Below, piece by piece: positions 1 to 19,480 of a stretch of DNA of 64,000 bases. Positions within the stretch are counted from its first letter, which is position 1. Every line of letters starts with the position of its first letter. Both the position numbers and the translations under genes were made by a program. The DNA lies in assembly GCF_007474605.1 (NCBI RefSeq), contig NZ_VHKL01000006.1:1-64000 (forward strand), written 5' to 3'. Under the pieces are notes generated by a model. The model saw nothing but the letters and a program-made list of their open reading frames with translations, was not told where the DNA came from and did no database searches. The stretch comes from Rhodoligotrophos appendicifer. Lineage in GTDB: Bacteria > Pseudomonadota > Alphaproteobacteria > Rhizobiales > Im1.

Positions 1-2
1 CA

Positions 3-729
3 GCCTAGCCAATGGACGGCTTTTACTCCGCCCGCACCGCCATCACGTCGGCGCTCCATGGCCTAATTTGTCACCGCCCTGCACAATCAAGGCGAGATTG
101 AAGCCTATGCCGCTCTGAAAGATCGCTTGGCGAAGTTTCAAATTCCGACATTCTTGATGATTGGCGGTCACGATTCCCGTGATCGGTTTTTTGAAGTTTT
201 CACGAACCACCCCCGAGACGAAAATGGTTATGCGCAGTTTACGCATCAGACCGCTGAGGCGTTTTGCATCTTCATAGACTCGGTCGGTCCGGAATCGAGT
301 GGAAGTGGTTATTGTGATCTCCGACTGAGTTGGCTCAGAGACCAACTTGAGAGCGCGCCAGACTTGCCTTTGTTGATCTTTAGTCACCACCCCCCGTTTG
401 ACGTGAACATTGCTCTTCCTGACGGAACAAGACTGGCAGACGGTGGTAAAATTGCAGAGCTTATTGCCGATCGCCCGGTTCACCACTTCTTCTTCGGACA
501 CGTGCATCGGCCGATGTTTTGCACATGGCAGGGGATCCTGTGCTCGGGCGTACCCGGGCTCGTTTATCAAGTCCCCCTGACACCCAGCAGCGTATCAAGC
601 TCATACAGCATAGAGCCTCCTATGTACGCCGTGATCAACATCAATGCCGAGGGGACAATGGTTCATTTTGATGCCTTTATGCATCGCAGTTCAGCTGAAT
701 CACCGGCGTATAGGACTCAAGCTGGTTAA
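3..729 (+). pseudogene. Broken calcineurin-like phosphodiesterase (CpdA/Icc type), 5' part disrupted
   Basis: The readable part from about position 67 resembles the C-terminal two thirds of a cyclic-nucleotide or glycerophosphodiester phosphodiesterase of the CpdA/Icc metallophosphoesterase family. It keeps the FSHHPPF histidine motif and the GHVHRP motif. The matching reading frame continues upstream of the TTG at 127 into codons resembling the usual GEIEAYAAL stretch, then meets TAA at 64-66. Family-like sequence (MDGFYSARTAI) continues in another frame from position 12, with a TAG at 6-8. The GD metal-ligand motif is lost at the frame change, and the usual GNHD is GGHD, so a key Asn is missing. 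Several independent lesions argue for a decayed gene. The N-terminus lies outside the window. A shorter protein could still be made from TTG 127, but it would lack half the metal site. Confidence 0.6.
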
Positions 730-744
730 GTGCCGAGAATGCTG

Positions 745-1026
745 CTAACGCGCCTGTTTTTCGATGTTGGGAATGCTGTCCTCGACCGAAACGGCCTCCG
801 TTCCCTTCATCTCGATTTCTTCGCCATCGCCGAAGATCGCAATGCATCCCTTCATGCAGATGTCGGATATCGTCTCACCTGGCGCGATCTCATAGGATTG
901 CTCTTCATCATCAGCAATGATCGTGACCGTCGTCAGGGTTGTGTCTTGGTTTTTTAAAGTCAGAGCTGCAAGTTCGCCGCCTGTGATCTGCAGCAGAAAA
1001 AGAGCCAAAACGACAGCAAATTTCAT
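745..1026 (-). CDS. Small exported protein of unknown function (93 aa)
   Basis: The start is ATG 1026, preceded by AAGGAG at good spacing; a longer frame running up to 1164 has no support. The first about 20 residues (MKFAVVLALFLLQITGG) form a signal peptide, so the mature product of about 72 residues is probably periplasmic. It is acidic, with a CMKGC pair at residues 57-61 that could form a disulfide or bind metal, and a segment rich in Glu and Asp (DGEEIEMKG). I do not recognise the family with certainty; similar short exported proteins occur in Hyphomicrobiales. It is the last gene of the minus-strand series after the substrate-binding protein, but a strong hairpin separates the two, so it may be transcribed separately. 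Confidence 0.75.
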   Translation of the reverse strand: MKFAVVLALFLLQITGGELAALTLKNQDTTLTTVTIIADDEEQSYEIAPGETISDICMKGCIAIFGDGEEIEMKGTEAVSVEDSIPNIEKQAR

Positions 1027-1077
1027 GACAATACTCCTTGGACGCCCGCGCCTCGGCGCCCGCCTGTCGAATGCAAA

Positions 1078-1104
1078 GCGCCTCTTCGAAACACGAAGAG
1101 GCGC
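1078..1104 (-). terminator. Stem-loop terminator after the substrate-binding protein gene
   Basis: A perfect 11-bp inverted repeat (GCGCCTCTTCG and its complement) encloses the loop AAACA. It begins 32 nt downstream of the stop codon at 1136 on the minus strand and is followed by a short T-containing stretch (TTTGCATT). It probably ends or attenuates the upstream operon before the small exported protein gene. Confidence 0.6.
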
Positions 1105-1135
1105 GGAAGTCATTGAGGGTCTTTGGAGAACGCTC

Positions 1136-2812
1136 TTACCCCTCGATGGCCAGGGTCTCCCCAAAGATGTAACGCGTCGGATGCATCTGGAAGCCCTTCA
1201 CCTTTTTATCATATACGACAAAAAGTGATCGCCATATCGGTTGGCAAAGGGGCCCTTCGTTTTGCATGAGGGTCTCGATCTGAGCCATGATTTTCTTACG
1301 TTCTGTTATGTCCAGAGTTCCCTCTGCCTTCGTCAGCAGACTCTCGAACTCCGGATTATTGAACTTGCTCTCGTTCCAGGCTCCATTTGCGCGATAGGCC
1401 AAAGCAAGAGTCATTGTGCCTAGAGGCCTGTGCACCCAGCTTGTAAAGCCCATAGGCACCGTGTTCCAGACTTCCCAATACTTGGCCGATGGAACCACGT
1501 TGATCTTTGCCCTGATATTGGCGTCCTTCCACTGCGAGACCATCGTTTCCACAGCCGTCTGCTCCCACGATGGATCCGGTTTGCAGTAAATTTCGATGTC
1601 GATTCCGTCCGCATGACCGGCTTCAGCCAGCAGGGCCTTTGCCTTGTCGAGATCCCGTTCGATCATCGGGATCTCCGCATAATCCGGCAACACGGGAGCA
1701 ACGTGATGATGTTCAGCAACTGCCCCTAATCCACGATGTGAGATGTCGAGCACTTGCTTTTGGTCGGTCGCATATCGCACCGCTTGGCGAACCTTGGGAT
1801 CCTTGAACCATTCATGATCCACCTGCATTCGAGCCACGCAGGTATCGGCCGTAACGACGTCATAGACCTGAATGTCCGGCATTTGCTTATAAATATCAAG
1901 CTGTTCGATATTGCCTTCATAGATTCCGTCAACCTGCTTCGATGCAATCGCCGCCGCGACCGCTGCCGGATTGTCGCCGAGATCGATGAACTCGATGGCA
2001 TCCAGATAAGGCCCGTCCCCGTAATAGTCGTTCCGTGCCTTGAGAAGCGCTCTGCGACCGACCTCGACCTCTGCAAGCTCGAAAGCCTCCGTTCCGTTGG
2101 AGCCTGCACCGAACTTGCCGCCCTCCTCCGGATCGAGAATACCGAAGGGATAATGGAACAGATGTTCTGGCACAGCGATCTGTGCTTCCTTCAGATTCAG
2201 CTTGAGAGTCTTGTCGTCAACGACTTCGATGGCATTGGCGTCCCACAGCTCTGTCGCCATGATGGGATTACCCTTGTCGTCCTTCTTACCGGTGTCGACC
2301 TCTTTAACCATATAGCTCATCAGGCCCAGAACCGATGAGCCCGTCTCCGGTTTCAGCCGATACGCTATGTTCCATGCAAGATCTTGAGCAGTCAGTGGCT
2401 TGCCCTTATGCCACTTCACATCGCGGACGCCGAGGGTCCAGGTTTTAAGATCTTCAGAGGGCGACCATTTTTCCAAAAGATGTGGACGTGTCACATTGTC
2501 GACGCCGGTCCTGCTCATATATCCGCAGACTTGGCGTAGGATATTGGAGTCGTAGATCCACGAATAAGTAGCTGGATTGTCGATCTTCGGCACCCGCATG
2601 GCAATCTTGAGGGTGCCGCCTTTCGGCATCGCCTGCGCCATGGCCGGCATCGCAATCGGATTTCCCGTGATCTTTCCAGCTAACATATAAGCCGAACCGG
2701 CAGATATCCCCAAAAGAGTAGAATATCGCAGGAACTCTCGGCGGGATATTTTACCATTGGACAGCTGGGTCTTTAGCGATAGTAGTCCAGGATGTTCATT
2801 TTTGTTTGTCAT
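1136..2812 (-). CDS. ABC transporter substrate-binding protein, family 5 (DppA/OppA type), Tat-exported
   Basis: This 558-residue protein is a periplasmic solute-binding protein of the peptide/opine/nickel family (SBP_bac_5), of normal length. The N-terminus carries a twin-arginine signal, SRREFLR at residues 23-29, followed by a hydrophobic stretch and an alanine-rich cleavage region near residue 60, so it is probably exported folded. ATG 2812 is preceded by GGGAG at 6 nt. Family-typical stretches include WHKGKPLTAQDLAWN and VRQAVRYATDQKQVLD. The gene follows the amidase and mttB genes on the same strand, which suggests that it binds the compound those enzymes process. No permease or ATPase gene is adjacent, so it must use a transporter encoded elsewhere or act as a receptor. 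The ligand cannot be inferred from the sequence. Confidence 0.88.
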   Translation of the reverse strand: MTNKNEHPGLLSLKTQLSNGKISRREFLRYSTLLGISAGSAYMLAGKITGNPIAMPAMAQAMPKGGTLKIAMRVPKIDNPATYSWIYDSNILRQVCGYMSRTGVDNVTRPHLLEKWSPSEDLKTWTLGVRDVKWHKGKPLTAQDLAWNIAYRLKPETGSSVLGLMSYMVKEVDTGKKDDKGNPIMATELWDANAIEVVDDKTLKLNLKEAQIAVPEHLFHYPFGILDPEEGGKFGAGSNGTEAFELAEVEVGRRALLKARNDYYGDGPYLDAIEFIDLGDNPAAVAAAIASKQVDGIYEGNIEQLDIYKQMPDIQVYDVVTADTCVARMQVDHEWFKDPKVRQAVRYATDQKQVLDISHRGLGAVAEHHHVAPVLPDYAEIPMIERDLDKAKALLAEAGHADGIDIEIYCKPDPSWEQTAVETMVSQWKDANIRAKINVVPSAKYWEVWNTVPMGFTSWVHRPLGTMTLALAYRANGAWNESKFNNPEFESLLTKAEGTLDITERKKIMAQIETLMQNEGPLCQPIWRSLFVVYDKKVKGFQMHPTRYIFGETLAIEG

Positions 2813-6259: not shown

Positions 6260-6982
6260 ATGACGCCCAATCCCTCATTTCTTTTGCCAGCTGATCAGAG
6301 TTCGGACCCCGCCGCCCTCTCGGCGGGAAAATCTGTTCACAGCTTGGGCCCGGTACAACTTGTCTTGGGCGCGACTGTGGATGCGCCGACGGCATCCACC
6401 CGAGAATTCGGTCCTTCTCATACGGTTTCGGAGAAATGGACAGCGGGGTCACTGGTGCTGAACAACTCGCAGAGCGATGAACTGCAAGTGTTCAAACACG
6501 ATGGCGGCTTCAGCATTACGGGCCGGGTCGACGGCGGTCCCATTACGATCAACCTTTCCGGCGAAGGCATAAGCGGTATCGAGATCATCCAGTACGGTCC
6601 GTCGGTAATTGCACAGCTTCGGGGCGAATGGGCCGGAACAAAGTATGAGGCTAACACTGCCGGGACGCCCGAGGGAGCTCGCTACAACGGCGACGGCTAC
6701 ACTCCTTTTGATAAGCTCAACATTGAGGTTGTCGCCCAAGAAAATGGCACCTCATTGGCACAATCTATGAGCATTCTCGTGCCTCCGACAGAGGACCGGA
6801 TGGACCCTTCTTCTGTATTCTCGGCCACCCACGGGGGAGCCATACTGCAGATTTGCCCGCCGATGAATTCCGGCGAGCTGGCTCACATCGCTGACACTAG
6901 CGATTTATCGGCTTCCGAAAACATCGCATCCGCTGGAGGCAGGGGAGGTACAGCCATGGCCGAAGGCGATTTCCTACTTTAG
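6260..6982 (+). CDS. Hypothetical protein, 240 aa
   Basis: I do not recognise this protein. It is 240 residues long, has no signal peptide or membrane segment, and is rich in Gly, Ser and Thr with alternating polar and hydrophobic residues in the middle (roughly 80-160), which suggests beta structure. The C-terminus is low in complexity (GGRGGTAMAEGDFLL). A short acidic-hydrophobic end of this kind would be compatible with type I secretion, but no glycine-aspartate repeats or transporter genes are present. ATG 6260 starts shortly after an AT-rich stretch (about 6,225-6,250) that could hold its promoter. It lies divergently from mttB (203 nt apart) and upstream of the plus-strand methyl-transfer genes, so it may share their regulation. 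Coding is supported by length and a codon pattern like that of its neighbours. Confidence 0.6.
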   Translation: MTPNPSFLLPADQSSDPAALSAGKSVHSLGPVQLVLGATVDAPTASTREFGPSHTVSEKWTAGSLVLNNSQSDELQVFKHDGGFSITGRVDGGPITINLSGEGISGIEIIQYGPSVIAQLRGEWAGTKYEANTAGTPEGARYNGDGYTPFDKLNIEVVAQENGTSLAQSMSILVPPTEDRMDPSSVFSATHGGAILQICPPMNSGELAHIADTSDLSASENIASAGGRGGTAMAEGDFLL

Positions 6983-14127: not shown

Positions 14128-14584
14128 AGGCTCCTGTCTCTGCGGAGCGGTCCAGTTCACGGCGGGCGAGCCTCTGCGCCCCATCGTCTACTGCCACTGT
14201 CGTCAATGTCGGAAGCAAACCGGCCACTTTCTCGCGTCGACCGCGACAGCGTTGGATCGTTTTCAACTCACATGTGACCAGGGGCTCGCCTGGTATCGGG
14301 CCAGCGAGATCGCCACACGCGGCTTCTGCAGAATCTGCGGCTCGACCCTGTTCTGGCAGCGCGACGGAGCCGACGAGATCTCCATTGCCGCAGGCACCTT
14401 GGATGACAGCACCGGCCTCATCGAGGACGGGCACATTTTTTGCGCGGAGAAGGGCGGGTATTACGAGCCGGCCGGGGGCAAGTATCAGGTTCCGGGCTCA
14501 GACCGGCCGGCGACCCCTCAGCCGGAGGTCCTCGCCCTCAGGAAACCATCCATGTCGCCATATCCGGTGAAGCGGCGTTCATAG
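14111..14584 (+). CDS. GFA-family zinc-binding protein
   Basis: This 157-residue protein carries the Cys pattern of the glutathione-dependent formaldehyde-activating (GFA/CENP-V) family: CLC at 9-11, CHCRQC at 28-33 and CRIC near 79-82, which bind zinc. The founding member Gfa accelerates addition of glutathione to formaldehyde, but many GFA paralogues have other or unknown roles. Formaldehyde handling would make sense near demethylation genes; that is an inference. ATG 14111 is preferred over the adjoining GTG 14108. The first 17 nt lie inside the upstream iron-sulfur gene, indicating coupling. The last about 67 nt overlap the 3' end of the convergent DUF1638 gene; the zinc domain is complete before that overlap. 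Confidence 0.82.
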   Translation: MVSKREGSCLCGAVQFTAGEPLRPIVYCHCRQCRKQTGHFLASTATALDRFQLTCDQGLAWYRASEIATRGFCRICGSTLFWQRDGADEISIAAGTLDDSTGLIEDGHIFCAEKGGYYEPAGGKYQVPGSDRPATPQPEVLALRKPSMSPYPVKRRS

Positions 14585-15216
14585 CCGAGCCCCAGTCGCT
14601 TCGCCGCAGTCTCGGCTCTGGCGTCCAAGCCGGGATCGTTGACCTGGGCGAGATAAATGACCTTCTCGTAATTGCCAAAATAGAGCGGCAGAAGCTCAGG
14701 ATGGCGGTCGAGGCCCAGGCCCTCCCAAACCAGCTTGTCAAAGTGCCGGGCCAGATAATCGGTGAGATAGAAGCTTCTGAAGTCGGCGTCCTCGCGGCCG
14801 GCAAAGAGGTCATTGCCGGTGAAGAAGGAGTAGCAGTGCGGACCTGGGATCCGCTCGACGCCTTCTTCTTCCACCACACGATCCAAAAGGCCGCCGGTAC
14901 CACAGTCACCATAGAGCACGAAGATATTCTCGTAAGCACCTCGAGCTTCGCGGATTTTTTCGCGGACCGCCTCAGGGATCATCTCTGGATGATTGTGCAG
15001 CTTAGCGGGCAGGCACGCGAGATCGAACATCGCCCACTGATTGGCCTCGATGAGCGTGACGATTTCAGTGGCAAGGGCACCACAGGCGATCAGCAGGAGA
15101 CGACCCTCCCCTCTCCTGAAGCCGAACGTCTCTACCGTCTCCAAATTCATAGACTGACTATAGGGAGGATCGACGTCTGGCGAAAGGGCGCAGGCCTCGA
15201 CAAGGGCGTCAACCAT
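14518..15216 (-). CDS. DUF1638 domain protein
   Basis: This is a 232-residue protein of the DUF1638 family, recognised from LIACGALATEI near residue 43, the YGDCGTGG segment near 102, the PHCYSFFTG segment and a C-terminal ERRFTGYGDM. The function is unknown; the conserved Cys and His residues (CG, DCG, HC) could bind a metal or cofactor. Such genes recur beside MttB-family methyltransferases and corrinoid proteins, and here one lies between the two mttB genes and the corrinoid protein gene. I therefore regard it as part of the methyl-transfer system. ATG 15216 has GAGGA 11 nt upstream; ATG 15150 is an alternative. Its 3' end overlaps the GFA gene on the other strand. Confidence 0.85.
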   Translation of the reverse strand: MVDALVEACALSPDVDPPYSQSMNLETVETFGFRRGEGRLLLIACGALATEIVTLIEANQWAMFDLACLPAKLHNHPEMIPEAVREKIREARGAYENIFVLYGDCGTGGLLDRVVEEEGVERIPGPHCYSFFTGNDLFAGREDADFRSFYLTDYLARHFDKLVWEGLGLDRHPELLPLYFGNYEKVIYLAQVNDPGLDARAETAAKRLGLGYERRFTGYGDMDGFLRARTSG

Positions 15217-15252
15217 TCACTAACCATTCCTCTTAAAATTTGTTTTGGTGTG

Positions 15253-15281
15253 TTTCAATTTATCTCTCGTTATGATTGAAA
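15253..15281. promoter_or_regulatory. Inverted repeat in AT-rich leader
   Basis: TTTCAAT and its complement ATTGAAA are separated by 15 nt, giving 22 nt between repeat centres. The site lies in the AT-rich gap between the divergent DUF1638 gene and the 15,289 gene. The spacing of about two helical turns is compatible with an operator, but no regulator is encoded nearby. Confidence 0.3.
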
Positions 15282-15288
15282 TCGCATA

Positions 15289-15678
15289 GTGAAGGCCGAA
15301 GATGTCATTGGGTGCGTCATGGCCTGGTCGCTGATGAAAACTTTCTCCAAACGGAACCGACCTCGGCCGGCCCGGACACTTGAAGTCGAGGAGTTTGAAG
15401 CCCCTGAACGGCGGTGGGATGGCAGTTCTGCCCAAATAAGACTCCGAAGAGAGCTCAAGTTAATTCGCGTCCCAAATACCAAATTATCCTGGATTTCAAT
15501 GACAATATCCGATGATATTGCAGAGATAAAATCCGGCTCTCACAGTAATTTGGTTCATCATTTTCTTTCTGCAGAACACGTCAGTTATTTACTAGAGCAA
15601 CGAGGGTCTGATGTTTATATTCATCTATATTTAAATGCTGAGCGTGACAAATCGAGGACAAAATTTACTATAGTTTGA
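15289..15678 (+). CDS. Hypothetical protein in AT-rich patch
   Basis: The frame encodes up to 129 residues; GTG 15289, ATG 15319 and ATG 15334 are all possible starts and none has a clear ribosome site. The C-terminal two thirds alternates charged and hydrophobic residues (IHLYLNAERDKSRTKFTIV) like a small beta-rich domain. No signal peptide or family is recognised. Base composition is clearly more AT-rich than the surrounding genes, especially after 15,440, and codon use differs to match, which suggests acquired sequence. The gene ends 33 nt before the first of two paralogous small glycine-rich protein genes and may be cotranscribed with them, possibly as a partner or protective protein; this is speculation from position. 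Confidence 0.5.
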   Translation: MKAEDVIGCVMAWSLMKTFSKRNRPRPARTLEVEEFEAPERRWDGSSAQIRLRRELKLIRVPNTKLSWISMTISDDIAEIKSGSHSNLVHHFLSAEHVSYLLEQRGSDVYIHLYLNAERDKSRTKFTIV

Positions 15679-15711
15679 ATTATTTTCATAAAATTTCATG
15701 AGGAGTAAGTT

Positions 15712-16092
15712 ATGAGCTTTATCGGAAGCGCGATCAGTGCTGTGGGTGGAGTTGTCGGCAGTATATTCGGCGGTGTCGCAAATGCTGTTGGCGAGGCAGT
15801 CGTTGACGTTGGCCATGTCGCCCAGGCAGTCGTCGACGTACCCGTCCATCTCGTAAAGCATGCGGGCGAGACCATATCGAGCTTGGGTAACGGCAATGAC
15901 CATAACAACAATCACAGTAACGATGGCCCCTATACGCCGTCGCCGCTCGCCGTTGATCCCGGAACCCAACCCGGAGCGGGCCACGGCCCGGCGATCTCTC
16001 CTGCCCCGACCCCCATCATGGATCATGGTCCGGGTCCAGCGGCCGATCAAAATGACGGAATGATCTACCACAGCGGCGACCACATGATGTGA
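15712..16092 (+). CDS. Small glycine-rich amphipathic protein, copy 1 of a tandem pair
   Basis: This 126-residue protein starts at ATG 15712 behind GAGGAGT. Residues 1-60 are rich in Gly, Ala and Val with small residues spaced like a glycine zipper (SAVGGVVGSIFGG), then comes an Asn/His stretch (65-71), a Pro/Gly-rich linker and an acidic end with DGMIYH near residue 115. The second protein 338 nt downstream shares the MSFI start, the glycine-rich helix, the Pro-rich linker and the DG-[ML]-IYH end, so the two are paralogues. I do not recognise the family. The N-terminal half could insert into or lie on a membrane; there is no classical cleavable signal peptide. A bacteriocin-like, holin-like or matrix protein are all conceivable, none shown. 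Confidence 0.65.
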   Translation: MSFIGSAISAVGGVVGSIFGGVANAVGEAVVDVGHVAQAVVDVPVHLVKHAGETISSLGNGNDHNNNHSNDGPYTPSPLAVDPGTQPGAGHGPAISPAPTPIMDHGPGPAADQNDGMIYHSGDHMM

Positions 16093-16429
16093 CACGAAGC
16101 CTCGATGATCGCCAAGATCTCCACGATCATTGAGGCTGATCTCCGGGTCTGAGGGATCGGGCTCGCCCTTTCTTTACCGTCCCTCGACAACCTACAAGCC
16201 CTTATCAACTGATACACACTCTAGGGTTGCAATCCTGCCCTTTCGGCGATATAGGAACGACGATCAGAGTCGGAGACTTAGGCCAACATCTGGGGAGGAG
16301 GCCGTCGTTTTATCAATGTCGGGCCCCTCCTTCCTGGAGGTCGCAATACTCATACAACAGCAAAAAAATTTTCTCTCTCCGACCCATTAGAAGAAATTCT
16401 ATTTTCCTATAATAATTCGAGGATTTGAA
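16093..16429 (+). other. Spacer between the two small glycine-rich protein genes
   Basis: This 337-nt gap holds no convincing gene; the one frame of 86 codons (16,130-16,390) has no ribosome site and low-complexity composition. It starts with an imperfect stem-loop, and its last 80 nt are strongly AT-rich (around 16,360-16,420), including TATAAT-like sequence (CCTATAATAATTC), so it probably carries a separate promoter for the second copy. No degenerate third copy of the small gene was seen. Confidence 0.4.
16099..16136 (+). terminator. Imperfect stem-loop after small gene copy 1
   Basis: GCCTCGATGATCG (16,099-16,111) pairs with CGATCATTGAGGC (16,124-16,136) with one mismatch around a 12-nt loop. 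It begins 7 nt after the stop codon at 16,092. There is no U tract, so it could be a factor-dependent end or a transcript-stabilising hairpin rather than a true intrinsic terminator. Confidence 0.35.
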
Positions 16430-16741
16430 ATGAGTTTCATAGCAGATACTTTTAACGGAATAGCAAATATCGCAGCGAATCTTGTCGGCGGTGCTGTGGG
16501 TATATTGGGTGGCGCGGTCACGGGTGTTGGAAAAGTGGCGGATGCCATTGTCCATATCCCAATCGATGCGTCCAAAATTGCGGGCGATACTCTCACCAAT
16601 ATCGGTGATGAGCTGCGCGGCAACCATCATCCTCCGGCAGCCGGCGGACCGACCCCGGTCCCGCAACCGCCGGCTGAGAGCGATGACGGACTGATTTACC
16701 ACGCCACCAGCTCCAGCTCGATCACCGGTCACGTATCGTGA
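16430..16741 (+). CDS. Small glycine-rich amphipathic protein, copy 2 of a tandem pair
   Basis: This 103-residue paralogue of the preceding small protein starts at ATG 16430, 6 nt after GAGGA. It has the same layout: MSFI start, Gly/Ala/Val-rich segment with GGAVGILGGAVTG spacing (residues 20-35), a polar stretch, a Pro-rich linker (PTPVPQPP) and an acidic end with DGLIYH near residue 87, followed by a Ser-rich tail. The linker is shorter than in copy 1, and the sequences diverge outside the common features, so this is an old duplication. No family is recognised. A GC-rich hairpin follows the gene. Confidence 0.65.
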   Translation: MSFIADTFNGIANIAANLVGGAVGILGGAVTGVGKVADAIVHIPIDASKIAGDTLTNIGDELRGNHHPPAAGGPTPVPQPPAESDDGLIYHATSSSSITGHVS

Positions 16742-16758
16742 CGACCCATGAGATCTAG

Positions 16759-16787
16759 GGGCCGGCCGCTGACGCGCCGGCCCGTTT
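16759..16787 (+). terminator. Intrinsic terminator-like hairpin after small gene copy 2
   Basis: An 8-bp perfect stem, GGGCCGGC with GCCGGCCC, encloses a 9-nt loop (CGCTGACGC) and is followed by GTTTG. It lies 17 nt after the stop at 16,741, between the small gene and the convergent corrinoid protein gene, and could stop transcription from the plus strand. Confidence 0.5.
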
Positions 16788-16877
16788 GACAAGGGGGGAT
16801 ACCTCGCAGCCGATCATTTGGCGGCCGCGCGGTGGGATCCGGCGTTGTCGTCTAAAGGCGAAGCCGGCGAGAAAGGC

Positions 16878-17579
16878 TCAGGCGCTGGCACGCACATTGT
16901 GGCGGCGCTTGATCATCTCGCGCGCCGTTTCGACCGCCACGGCCGCATCCCGGCAATAGGCATCAGCGCCGATCGCCGTTGCGAACTCCTCGTTCAACGG
17001 CGCGCCTCCCACAAGCACAATGTAATCGTCGCGGATGCCCTTCTCCTTCAGCGCATCGATGACGACTTTCATATAGGGCATGGTTGTCGTCAGGAGCGCC
17101 GACATGCCCAGAATATCCGGCTGATGTTCCTCGATGGCCGCGAGATACTTCTCGACGGGGTTGTTGATTCCGAGATCGATCACATCGAATCCCGCCCCCT
17201 CCATCATCATCCCGACGAGGTTCTTGCCGATGTCGTGGATATCGCCCTTGACGGTGCCGATCACCATCTTTCCCTGCTTTGGCGCTCCTGTCTCCGCCAG
17301 CAGCGGGCGGAGAATGAACATTCCCGCCTTCATGGCATTGGCGGCAAGCAGAACTTCCGGCACGAACAGGATGCCGTCACGAAAGTCCACCCCGACGATG
17401 CGCATGCCCTCGACCAGCGCCTCGGTGAGGACGCGATAGGGCGTCCAACCCCGCCCGAGCAGGATGTTGACGGCAACCTCGATTTCCTCCTTGAGGCCGT
17501 CATAGAGATCGTCATGCATCTGCTGAACGAGCTCATCATCGTCCAAGGAATTGAGATCGAGTTCTTCTTCGTTGCTCAT
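16878..17579 (-). CDS. Corrinoid (cobalamin-binding) methyl-carrier protein, MttC/MtbC type
   Basis: This 233-residue carrier holds the cobalamin that shuttles methyl groups. A helical cap domain (about residues 10-95) with ILLGRGWTPYRVLTEALVEGM precedes the Rossmann-like B12 domain. That domain has the signature D113-x-H115-x2-G118 in KGDIHDIGKN, where His115 would replace the lower ligand of cobalt, then GMSALLTTTM near 162 and LVGGAPLNEEFA near 190. ATG 17579 has GGAG 6 nt upstream; an in-frame GTG four codons earlier is less likely. It is the only corrinoid protein gene in the window, so it probably serves both MttB paralogues and the pterin-binding methyltransferase. It is transcribed separately, with a 634-nt upstream region. 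Confidence 0.92.
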   Translation of the reverse strand: MSNEEELDLNSLDDDELVQQMHDDLYDGLKEEIEVAVNILLGRGWTPYRVLTEALVEGMRIVGVDFRDGILFVPEVLLAANAMKAGMFILRPLLAETGAPKQGKMVIGTVKGDIHDIGKNLVGMMMEGAGFDVIDLGINNPVEKYLAAIEEHQPDILGMSALLTTTMPYMKVVIDALKEKGIRDDYIVLVGGAPLNEEFATAIGADAYCRDAAVAVETAREMIKRRHNVRASA

Positions 17580-18213
17580 CCCACTCTCCACAAATCGTCA
17601 AGGCGGACACCCGCAGAATTGTCTTATCGACAACAGCTGGAAAGGCCGACGCCTCTTCTCCCGTTGCCGCAATCATTCCTGGCGCGACCGCAGCTCCAGC
17701 TATGGCATGTCCCCAGGTCCATGCATCGCACCCAGCGACCGGAACACGCTCGAAATCGACATGGCGCTCCAAAACGCACTGACATGCCTCTGCGCCTGCC
17801 GCCATCGTGACCGATGCGGGTTGTGAGGGCCGTGGAGCGCCGAGCGGACGCGTATGGTTTTAGTATATGTAGCGACCGATCGGCGCTCCACGCGTGCCGT
17901 TCCAGCCGACGCCTCTTCGCGATGCCTAAGCTGGTCTACCCAGCGGTCCGCCCCGTGAGGGATGGCCGTGCAGAACGCGATATGACGTGAGCCTTGTCCT
18001 GTTCCCGTTCGTTACACGGGATGACAGAAAGCCCCGCATCTCCGCGCATGCCGGCCGGTCCGGACAAGCCCCCCACGCGGCGAAGACAAGCGCAGTATGA
18101 CACGCGCTGGAGGCGCGGGGATAAGTCGGCGGGTGATGTAGCAGTTTCGGGTGCGAGGAGATCGAACCTCATCGATCCCGGCGCGTTCCCTCTGCCTTTT
18201 CCGTCATCCTCTC
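17580..18213 (-). other. Long intergenic region upstream of the corrinoid protein gene
   Basis: About 630 nt without a convincing gene. It holds a 13-bp inverted repeat with an AT-rich centre (17,831-17,892) and fragments similar to the CGGGATGAC palindromic intergenic repeat (around 18,015-18,025). It probably contains the promoter of the corrinoid protein gene and the 3' region of the methyltransferase gene. I looked for a cobalamin riboswitch box and did not find one. Confidence 0.45.
17831..17892. repeat. 13-bp perfect inverted repeat with AT-rich centre
   Basis: CGTGGAGCGCCGA (17,831-17,843) is repeated in inverted form at 17,880-17,892, separated by 36 nt whose middle is AT-rich (GGTTTTAGTATATG). 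ACGCGT also occurs in both flanks. It lies about 250 nt upstream of the corrinoid protein gene. It could be a long hairpin in a leader transcript, a pair of operator half-sites around a promoter, or the relic ends of a small mobile element. Confidence 0.5.
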
Positions 18214-19227
18214 TTAAGACGGTGCGCGGCGACGGCGGCGTTCGCTGGCTTCCGACCGGGCGGGAGCTGCACCATGAGCGAGGGCGGAGACTTCGCCGAG
18301 CTTTGCGGTGATCTCCTCGACGCTGGGACGGTCGCCTTTCTTATGCGCCTCCAGGGCCGAGCGCATGGCCGCGAGATGCTTTGGCTCGGTGCCACAACAG
18401 CCTCCGATGATGCGTGCGCCTGCATCGAGCGCCAAGCAGGCATAATCCGCCATGATTTCGGGAGTGCCGCTGTAATGGATATGACCACCGACGAACTGGG
18501 GTATGCCGCAATTGCCTTTGGCCACGACGACCGCATCGGGTCGTGCGGCGGTGATGCCGAGAACGGTTGCCACCAGCTCAGCGGCACCCGTCCCGCAATT
18601 GGCGCCGATACCCGCGGGCTGCTTGTCCAAGGCGGCTGTCATGGCGCCGAAAGCCGCAGGCGTGATTCCCATCATGGTTCGACCATTGGTATCGAAACTC
18701 ATGGTGGTCACAATCGGCAGTCCGGCCTGCGAAGCTCCTTCCATCGCCGCCTTGAGCTCCTCTTCCGACGAGATCGTCTCTATCCACAAGACGTCTGCAC
18801 CGCCCTCCGCCAGAGCCCTTGCCTGTTCAGCGAACGCGTCCGCTCCATCGGCAATGGAGAGGGGCCCCACGGGCTCGAAGATTTCTCCCGTGGGTCCCAT
18901 GGACCCGGCCACCAGCACAACACGACCGGCAGCATTTGCCTCTTCGCGAGCCAGCTCTGCTGCGCGCTTGTTGAGCTCATGAACCCTGTTTTGCGCATCA
19001 TGCAACTTCAGGCGGTAACGATTGCCGCCAAAGGAATTGGTCAGAATGAGATCCGCCCCGGCCTCGATGAACTGTCGGTGCAGCGATCGGACACGATCGG
19101 GATGATCGACATTCCAGAACTCCGGGGCGTCGCCCGACTGCAGGCCCATTTGGAAGTAGTTGGTGCCCGTAGCCCCGTCGGCCAGCAGCCATGGCCGCGA
19201 GGCGAGGAGATCGAGGAACTTCGACAT
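18214..19227 (-). CDS. Betaine/methyl donor:homocysteine S-methyltransferase (BHMT-like)
   Basis: This 337-residue TIM-barrel enzyme belongs to the zinc-dependent homocysteine S-methyltransferase family. It begins with LLADGATGTNYFQMG, typical of the family, and carries the zinc ligands in GANCGTG (about residue 205) and GGCCGT (about 271). Such enzymes pass a methyl group to homocysteine to form methionine; the best known donors are glycine betaine and S-methylmethionine. ATG 19227 has GGAG 7 nt upstream, so the longer frame to 19344 is not used. The C-terminal 30 residues are basic and low in complexity. It sits beyond the corrinoid protein gene on the same strand. It could use betaine directly, providing a second route for the substrate of the MttB system; the donor is not determined. 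Confidence 0.85.
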   Translation of the reverse strand: MSKFLDLLASRPWLLADGATGTNYFQMGLQSGDAPEFWNVDHPDRVRSLHRQFIEAGADLILTNSFGGNRYRLKLHDAQNRVHELNKRAAELAREEANAAGRVVLVAGSMGPTGEIFEPVGPLSIADGADAFAEQARALAEGGADVLWIETISSEEELKAAMEGASQAGLPIVTTMSFDTNGRTMMGITPAAFGAMTAALDKQPAGIGANCGTGAAELVATVLGITAARPDAVVVAKGNCGIPQFVGGHIHYSGTPEIMADYACLALDAGARIIGGCCGTEPKHLAAMRSALEAHKKGDRPSVEEITAKLGEVSALAHGAAPARSEASERRRRRAPS

Positions 19228-19480
19228 GTGGCAACTCCATGGAATTCCCGTTGAGGAGCCACAAAATGACCCTGGATGCAACTCTGATCCGCCGCAGCGC
19301 AGCATATACCACCCCTGGACCGCACGCGGGTTTGGAGCTACCACAATGACGCGAGCCGGCCGGTACTCTATCGGGACGATGGCATGACGATGGTGCTGGA
19401 ATCACATCGCCTGCCTGCTTCTCGGCCGCCCGATCCAAGCTCCTGCCCGGCCCGTGACAAGGGGTTTTTGGAGACAGAAC

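Follow-up and report, generated by a model that had tools for sequence, protein, structure and literature searches.

Two tandem paralogous small-protein genes without detected relatives elsewhere, in a corrinoid methyl-transfer region

The window analysed here (the whole stretch of DNA, 64,000 nucleotides) carries on its + strand, surrounded by corrinoid methyl-transfer genes, two adjacent small-protein genes, A and B, that are paralogues of each other and have no other detected relative. They are real but probably ordinary species-specific genes, with a putative function; species-restricted genes for small hydrophobic proteins are common. Our tentative reading, which as a whole we hold at a probability of about 0.4, is that of a species-restricted, tandem-duplicated pair gained in about 1.2 kb between a genus-specific gene and a corrinoid gene, whose products would join a membrane-attaching or self-assembling helical half, a linker and a docking tail. 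The genes concerned are as follows.

14518-15216, - strand: DUF1638 gene
15319-15678, + strand: third gene, 119 aa, genus-restricted, with the ATG start that alignment to the congeners favours over the GTG at 15289
15679-16877, no strand: segment of about 1.2 kb with the pair, missing from both congeners
15712-16092, + strand: gene A, 126-aa orphan paralogue
16430-16741, + strand: gene B, 103-aa orphan paralogue with a Ser-rich end
16878-17591, - strand: corrinoid protein gene
18214-19344, - strand: S-methyltransferase gene
Further members of the cluster: two MttB-family genes and a RACo-like activator gene

Two paralogous reading frames and the search for relatives

The first-pass annotation placed two adjacent genes of the same layout at this locus, and the two open reading frames are indeed found there and are true paralogues. 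Their proteins are 31% identical over 121 columns (BLASTP, E 9e-14), with a Smith-Waterman score of 153, where 2000 shuffles averaged 37.5 (sd 7.2, maximum 72). With the MSFI start and the tail removed, the core scores 101 versus 32 (sd 6), 11 sd over the shuffles. Among all frame pairs tested, similarity was highest in the sense-sense frame; the antisense ORFs at 15631-16095 and 16313-16792, considered as the coding strand, were rejected because their mutual score is 43 versus 153 for the sense pair. Aligned codons differ 42, 34 and 62 times at positions 1, 2 and 3, and 21 of the 37 residues identical between the two proteins are encoded by different codons, a pattern to be expected where selection on the protein has preserved the genes. 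Ribosome-binding-like sequences lie upstream of 15712 (GAGGAG) and 16430 (GAGGA). Together, the paralogy scores, the frame, the codon pattern and these Shine-Dalgarno-like sites argue well for A and B being translated genes, duplicated long ago and both retained.

No relatives of the pair turned up in the remaining genomes of the family, in genome samples of the order (398), class (385) and phylum (399), in phage or plasmid collections or in the PDB. None was found in IMG/VR, and the sole match in the GTDB genome contigs was to a SecA-like tail, both scans using a few short patterns that distant relatives may escape. Pfam, NCBIfam, PHROG and PADLOC gave no match at the curated cut-off or E<0.001. 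The earlier remark that the proteins match no family is thus supported by every search made, including profile searches. Absence of homologues with conserved reading frames had been named as grounds for rejecting the genes; such homologues are absent outside the genome but not within it, because A and B are each other's conserved-frame homologues.

Several candidate relatives were rejected. The GTDB match, 43% identical to the tail, lies in a lake MAG (L046:1003-3669, + strand), in the Pro-rich C-terminal linker of a SecA-like protein that contains SDDGMIYHG; given this position, we take the likeness as probable convergence. Marginal profile matches in G176, G013 and G597 fall in long frames (586-793 aa), that of G597 being a TonB-receptor-like ORF. 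A match in the genome itself (C6:264455) is weak (E 0.03) and falls in a frame of 235 aa that has adaptor-like DNA next to it. Pfam Dicistro_VP4 and CBM46 stayed below cut-off, and no PHROG match was better than E 0.003, all of them covering portions of large families.

Presence and absence of the segment

The pair was correctly described as lying inside a methyl-transfer region, with DUF1638, corrinoid, S-methyltransferase, MttB-family and RACo-like genes around it. A part in methyl transfer is improbable for the pair, and no evidence was found that links it to that process. A 240-aa ORF between methyltransferase genes (6260-6982, + strand) has no Pfam match. Both congeners lack the pair: there the DUF1638 gene is followed by a relative of the third gene, which ends about 6 bases from the corrinoid gene. 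The pair thus constitutes an extra stretch of about 1.2 kb in this genome, and divergence of the flanking third gene keeps the exact ends of the stretch from being placed. The segment is present in one of four family genomes and missing from the three closest. Comparison of these genomes suggests that it was gained; loss by the relatives is less likely, gain being simpler than repeated loss. In another genus of the family, the same intergenic spot holds a gene read by eye as HAD-like (L045:1706-2566, - strand), so what lies next to the corrinoid gene at this site varies within the family.

Such presence and absence is also what speaks for passenger ORFs, non-functional or recently acquired remnants of a mobile element or phage, as do the weak PHROG matches and codon adaptation that is lower in the two genes (0.634 and 0.578) than in their neighbours (0.61-0.81). 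However, the excess of differences at third positions and the conservation of one particular frame indicate that selection acted after duplication, the PHROG matches are only the partial ones described above, and at the locus no tRNA, RNA family or clear flanking repeat was found and no integrase was seen, which leaves passengers an unlikely account.

The third gene has relatives in 3/3 genomes of the genus and 0/147 others, in every case flanked by the DUF1638 and corrinoid genes (congener copies L043:2425-2868 and L044:1508-2014). It is fast-evolving, its protein being 35-40% identical between species; in a comparison with one congener, identity is 91% for the corrinoid protein and 65% for the DUF1638 protein. 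The third gene has a third-position GC of 0.42 here versus 0.68-0.69 in the congeners, and its maximum hydropathy is 0.47. The first-pass annotation had proposed that recurrent co-occurrence of the pair with this gene, then started at 15,289, would support a system of three genes; a toxin pair with an antidote would be one example. The three genes are adjacent, on one strand and all below their surroundings in GC, but both other congeners carry the third gene in the same place without the pair. The three genes are therefore not a conserved unit, and the proposed system is largely refuted and scarcely credible.

The same annotation spoke of an AT-rich patch, and the dip at 15220-16790 is real (GC 0.512 versus 0.608, sd 0.030, for the window; within the bottom 0.6% of equally long windows). 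It comes mostly from the third gene (0.446) and the spacers (0.21-0.49), with gene A at 0.593 and gene B at 0.564, so an AT-rich island carrying the pair is only partly right. A second low-GC stretch occupies the start of the window (1-2300, GC 0.52-0.54). Hairpins follow both genes.

16098-16165, + strand: two strong hairpins 3' of gene A (z -2.5), the second followed by CCCTTTCTTT
16759-16783, + strand: GC-rich hairpin GGGCCGGC...GCCGGCCC 3' of gene B (z -2.0), with a weak T-run

The former are a probable transcription end or processing signal; the latter is a possible terminator for gene B and, on the other strand, for the corrinoid gene. Terminator-like sites in the region were not above chance, and a promoter scan gave nothing above chance.

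Protein architecture and possible function

Proteins A and B both start with MSFI, have an N-terminal half that is hydrophobic and made up largely of Gly, Ala and Val, and carry DG[ML]IYH behind a Pro-rich linker. What their alignment conserves is MSFI, G/A/V at scattered positions as far as residue ~59, a GG at 20-21 that is invariant, and the DG[ML]IYH tail; the linker differs in length and sequence. In protein A, the hydrophobic G/A/V stretch covers the N-terminal ~60 residues and the linker is N/H/D-rich, then P/G/H-rich. The tail motif is encoded at two places.

16054-16071, + strand: DGMIYH codons of gene A (residues 115-120 of protein A)
16685-16702, + strand: DGLIYH codons of gene B (residues 86-91 of protein B)

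The DNA of these copies is 90% identical, and the corresponding DNA pattern occurs twice in four family genomes, only in genes A and B (reversed pattern as control, 0 occurrences). The N-terminal halves consist of G/A/V/I to 58-60%, contain no Cys and no K/R before residue 49 or 35, and reach a maximum hydropathy of 1.6-1.7, which is borderline transmembrane. Both are strongly acidic (charges +1/-11 and +3/-9), the highest 18-residue helical moment is 0.44, and no signal peptide features or clear membrane anchor were seen in either. The predicted structure, of low confidence (pLDDT 51), has helices at 3-41 and 45-63 and coil afterwards, so the helices are a tendency and not a result. The glycine-zipper-like segment noted earlier holds in that both proteins contain GxxxGxxxG, but in different register (GxxxGxxxGxxxG at residues 20-32 of B, a zipper only at 12-20 of A) and at a frequency near that given by glycine content (no excess in A, P 0.16; marginal in B, P 0.02).

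The acidic charge, the uncharged helical half and the disordered tail suggest membrane or self-association combined with a docking motif. The N-terminal ~60 residues, amphipathic, helical and weakly hydrophobic, may serve in membrane attachment or self-association; the Pro-rich linker would be disordered; and DG[ML]IYH would be a short docking motif for a putative partner. The diverged copies A and B may form a mixed assembly. The same acidity, helical moment and lack of signal peptide features also agree with cytoplasmic surface-binding proteins, phasin- or synuclein-like, whose amphipathic half would coat a storage granule or the inner membrane while the acidic, disordered tail keeps them soluble. 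The likeness is physical only, with no phasin or other Pfam or NCBIfam match, and we consider this alternative improbable.

If functional, the pair would be a compact species-specific gene family, duplicated, with one short tail motif kept while the rest drifted, so the motif and its partner would be open to direct test. For now, its main contribution is one further orphan family with good support.

Comparison with bacteriocins and orphan genes

The nearest known analogue is the Cdz-type two-protein bacteriocin. In Caulobacter, CdzC and CdzD are two small glycine-zipper proteins that kill on contact (PMC5380434, also the source of the Cdz features compared here). The pair resembles Cdz in its alphaproteobacterial host, in having two adjacent small Gly/Ala/Val-rich proteins with helices and GxxxGxxxG (103 and 126 aa, within the Cdz range of 60-151 residues), in its patchy distribution, which Cdz-like loci share (PMC5380434), and in the lack of BLAST relatives. 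Cdz leaders end in G[G/A/S]; the invariant GG of A and B could end a leader, but the stretch before it is hydrophobic without K/R. A Cdz or class IIb two-protein bacteriocin would be exported by type I secretion, would insert a glycine-rich helix into neighbours' membranes and would be accompanied by an immunity gene, and the genome does have two type I HlyD adaptors over the curated cut-off.

The differences nevertheless leave a bacteriocin of either kind doubtful. A Cdz zipper follows the leader and is free of Pro and charge; B has its zipper at residues 20-32, but that of A precedes the GG, inside the would-be leader, and the later glycines of A are interrupted by E28, D32 and H35. The zipper register is not conserved, and the helix is broken by charged and polar residues. 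Cdz ends are short and polar, whereas A and B have a Pro-rich, N/H/P-rich tail of ~40-65 residues with DG[ML]IYH. The pair lacks a linked type I secretion system: none was seen within 10 kb, the larger neighbouring ORFs scanned from ~3 to 27 kb encoding methyltransferases, amidase, EamA, GFA, GlnA, DAO, arginase and an importer-type ATPase, and the nearest HlyD over cut-off (C6:66262) is ~50 kb away. No small transmembrane, CdzI-like immunity ORF was found in the sense frames of the segment, and only one ORF between 15200 and 16900 is strongly hydrophobic, running antisense to gene A. By eye, no similar small proteins accompany type I secretion loci in other parts of the genome; one such locus, on contig C10, adjoins a gene for a collagen-like Gly-x-y repeat protein (L062:10311-11771, - strand). 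With class IIb bacteriocins, known to us partly as general background, the pair shares paired genes, GxxxG helices and a possible GG site, and differs in its longer acidic tails and in lacking a charged double-glycine leader, a linked immunity gene and an exporter.

The membrane-active or bacteriocin-like role first suggested is nonetheless compatible with the sequences, and the proteins could insert into membranes even if they are no Cdz system. It appears very unlikely that they are paired membrane-active proteins of a new kind, with the two diverged copies acting together, DG[ML]IYH as an addressing or anchoring tag on a disordered linker and export by an unlinked system. The pair can also be set beside taxonomically restricted, or orphan, bacterial genes (for example PMC1824705). 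It is like them in being short, in occurring in one species of those examined and in occupying a variable site, and it differs in that its diverged tandem paralogues give evidence of coding and selection within a single genome, which single orphans lack.
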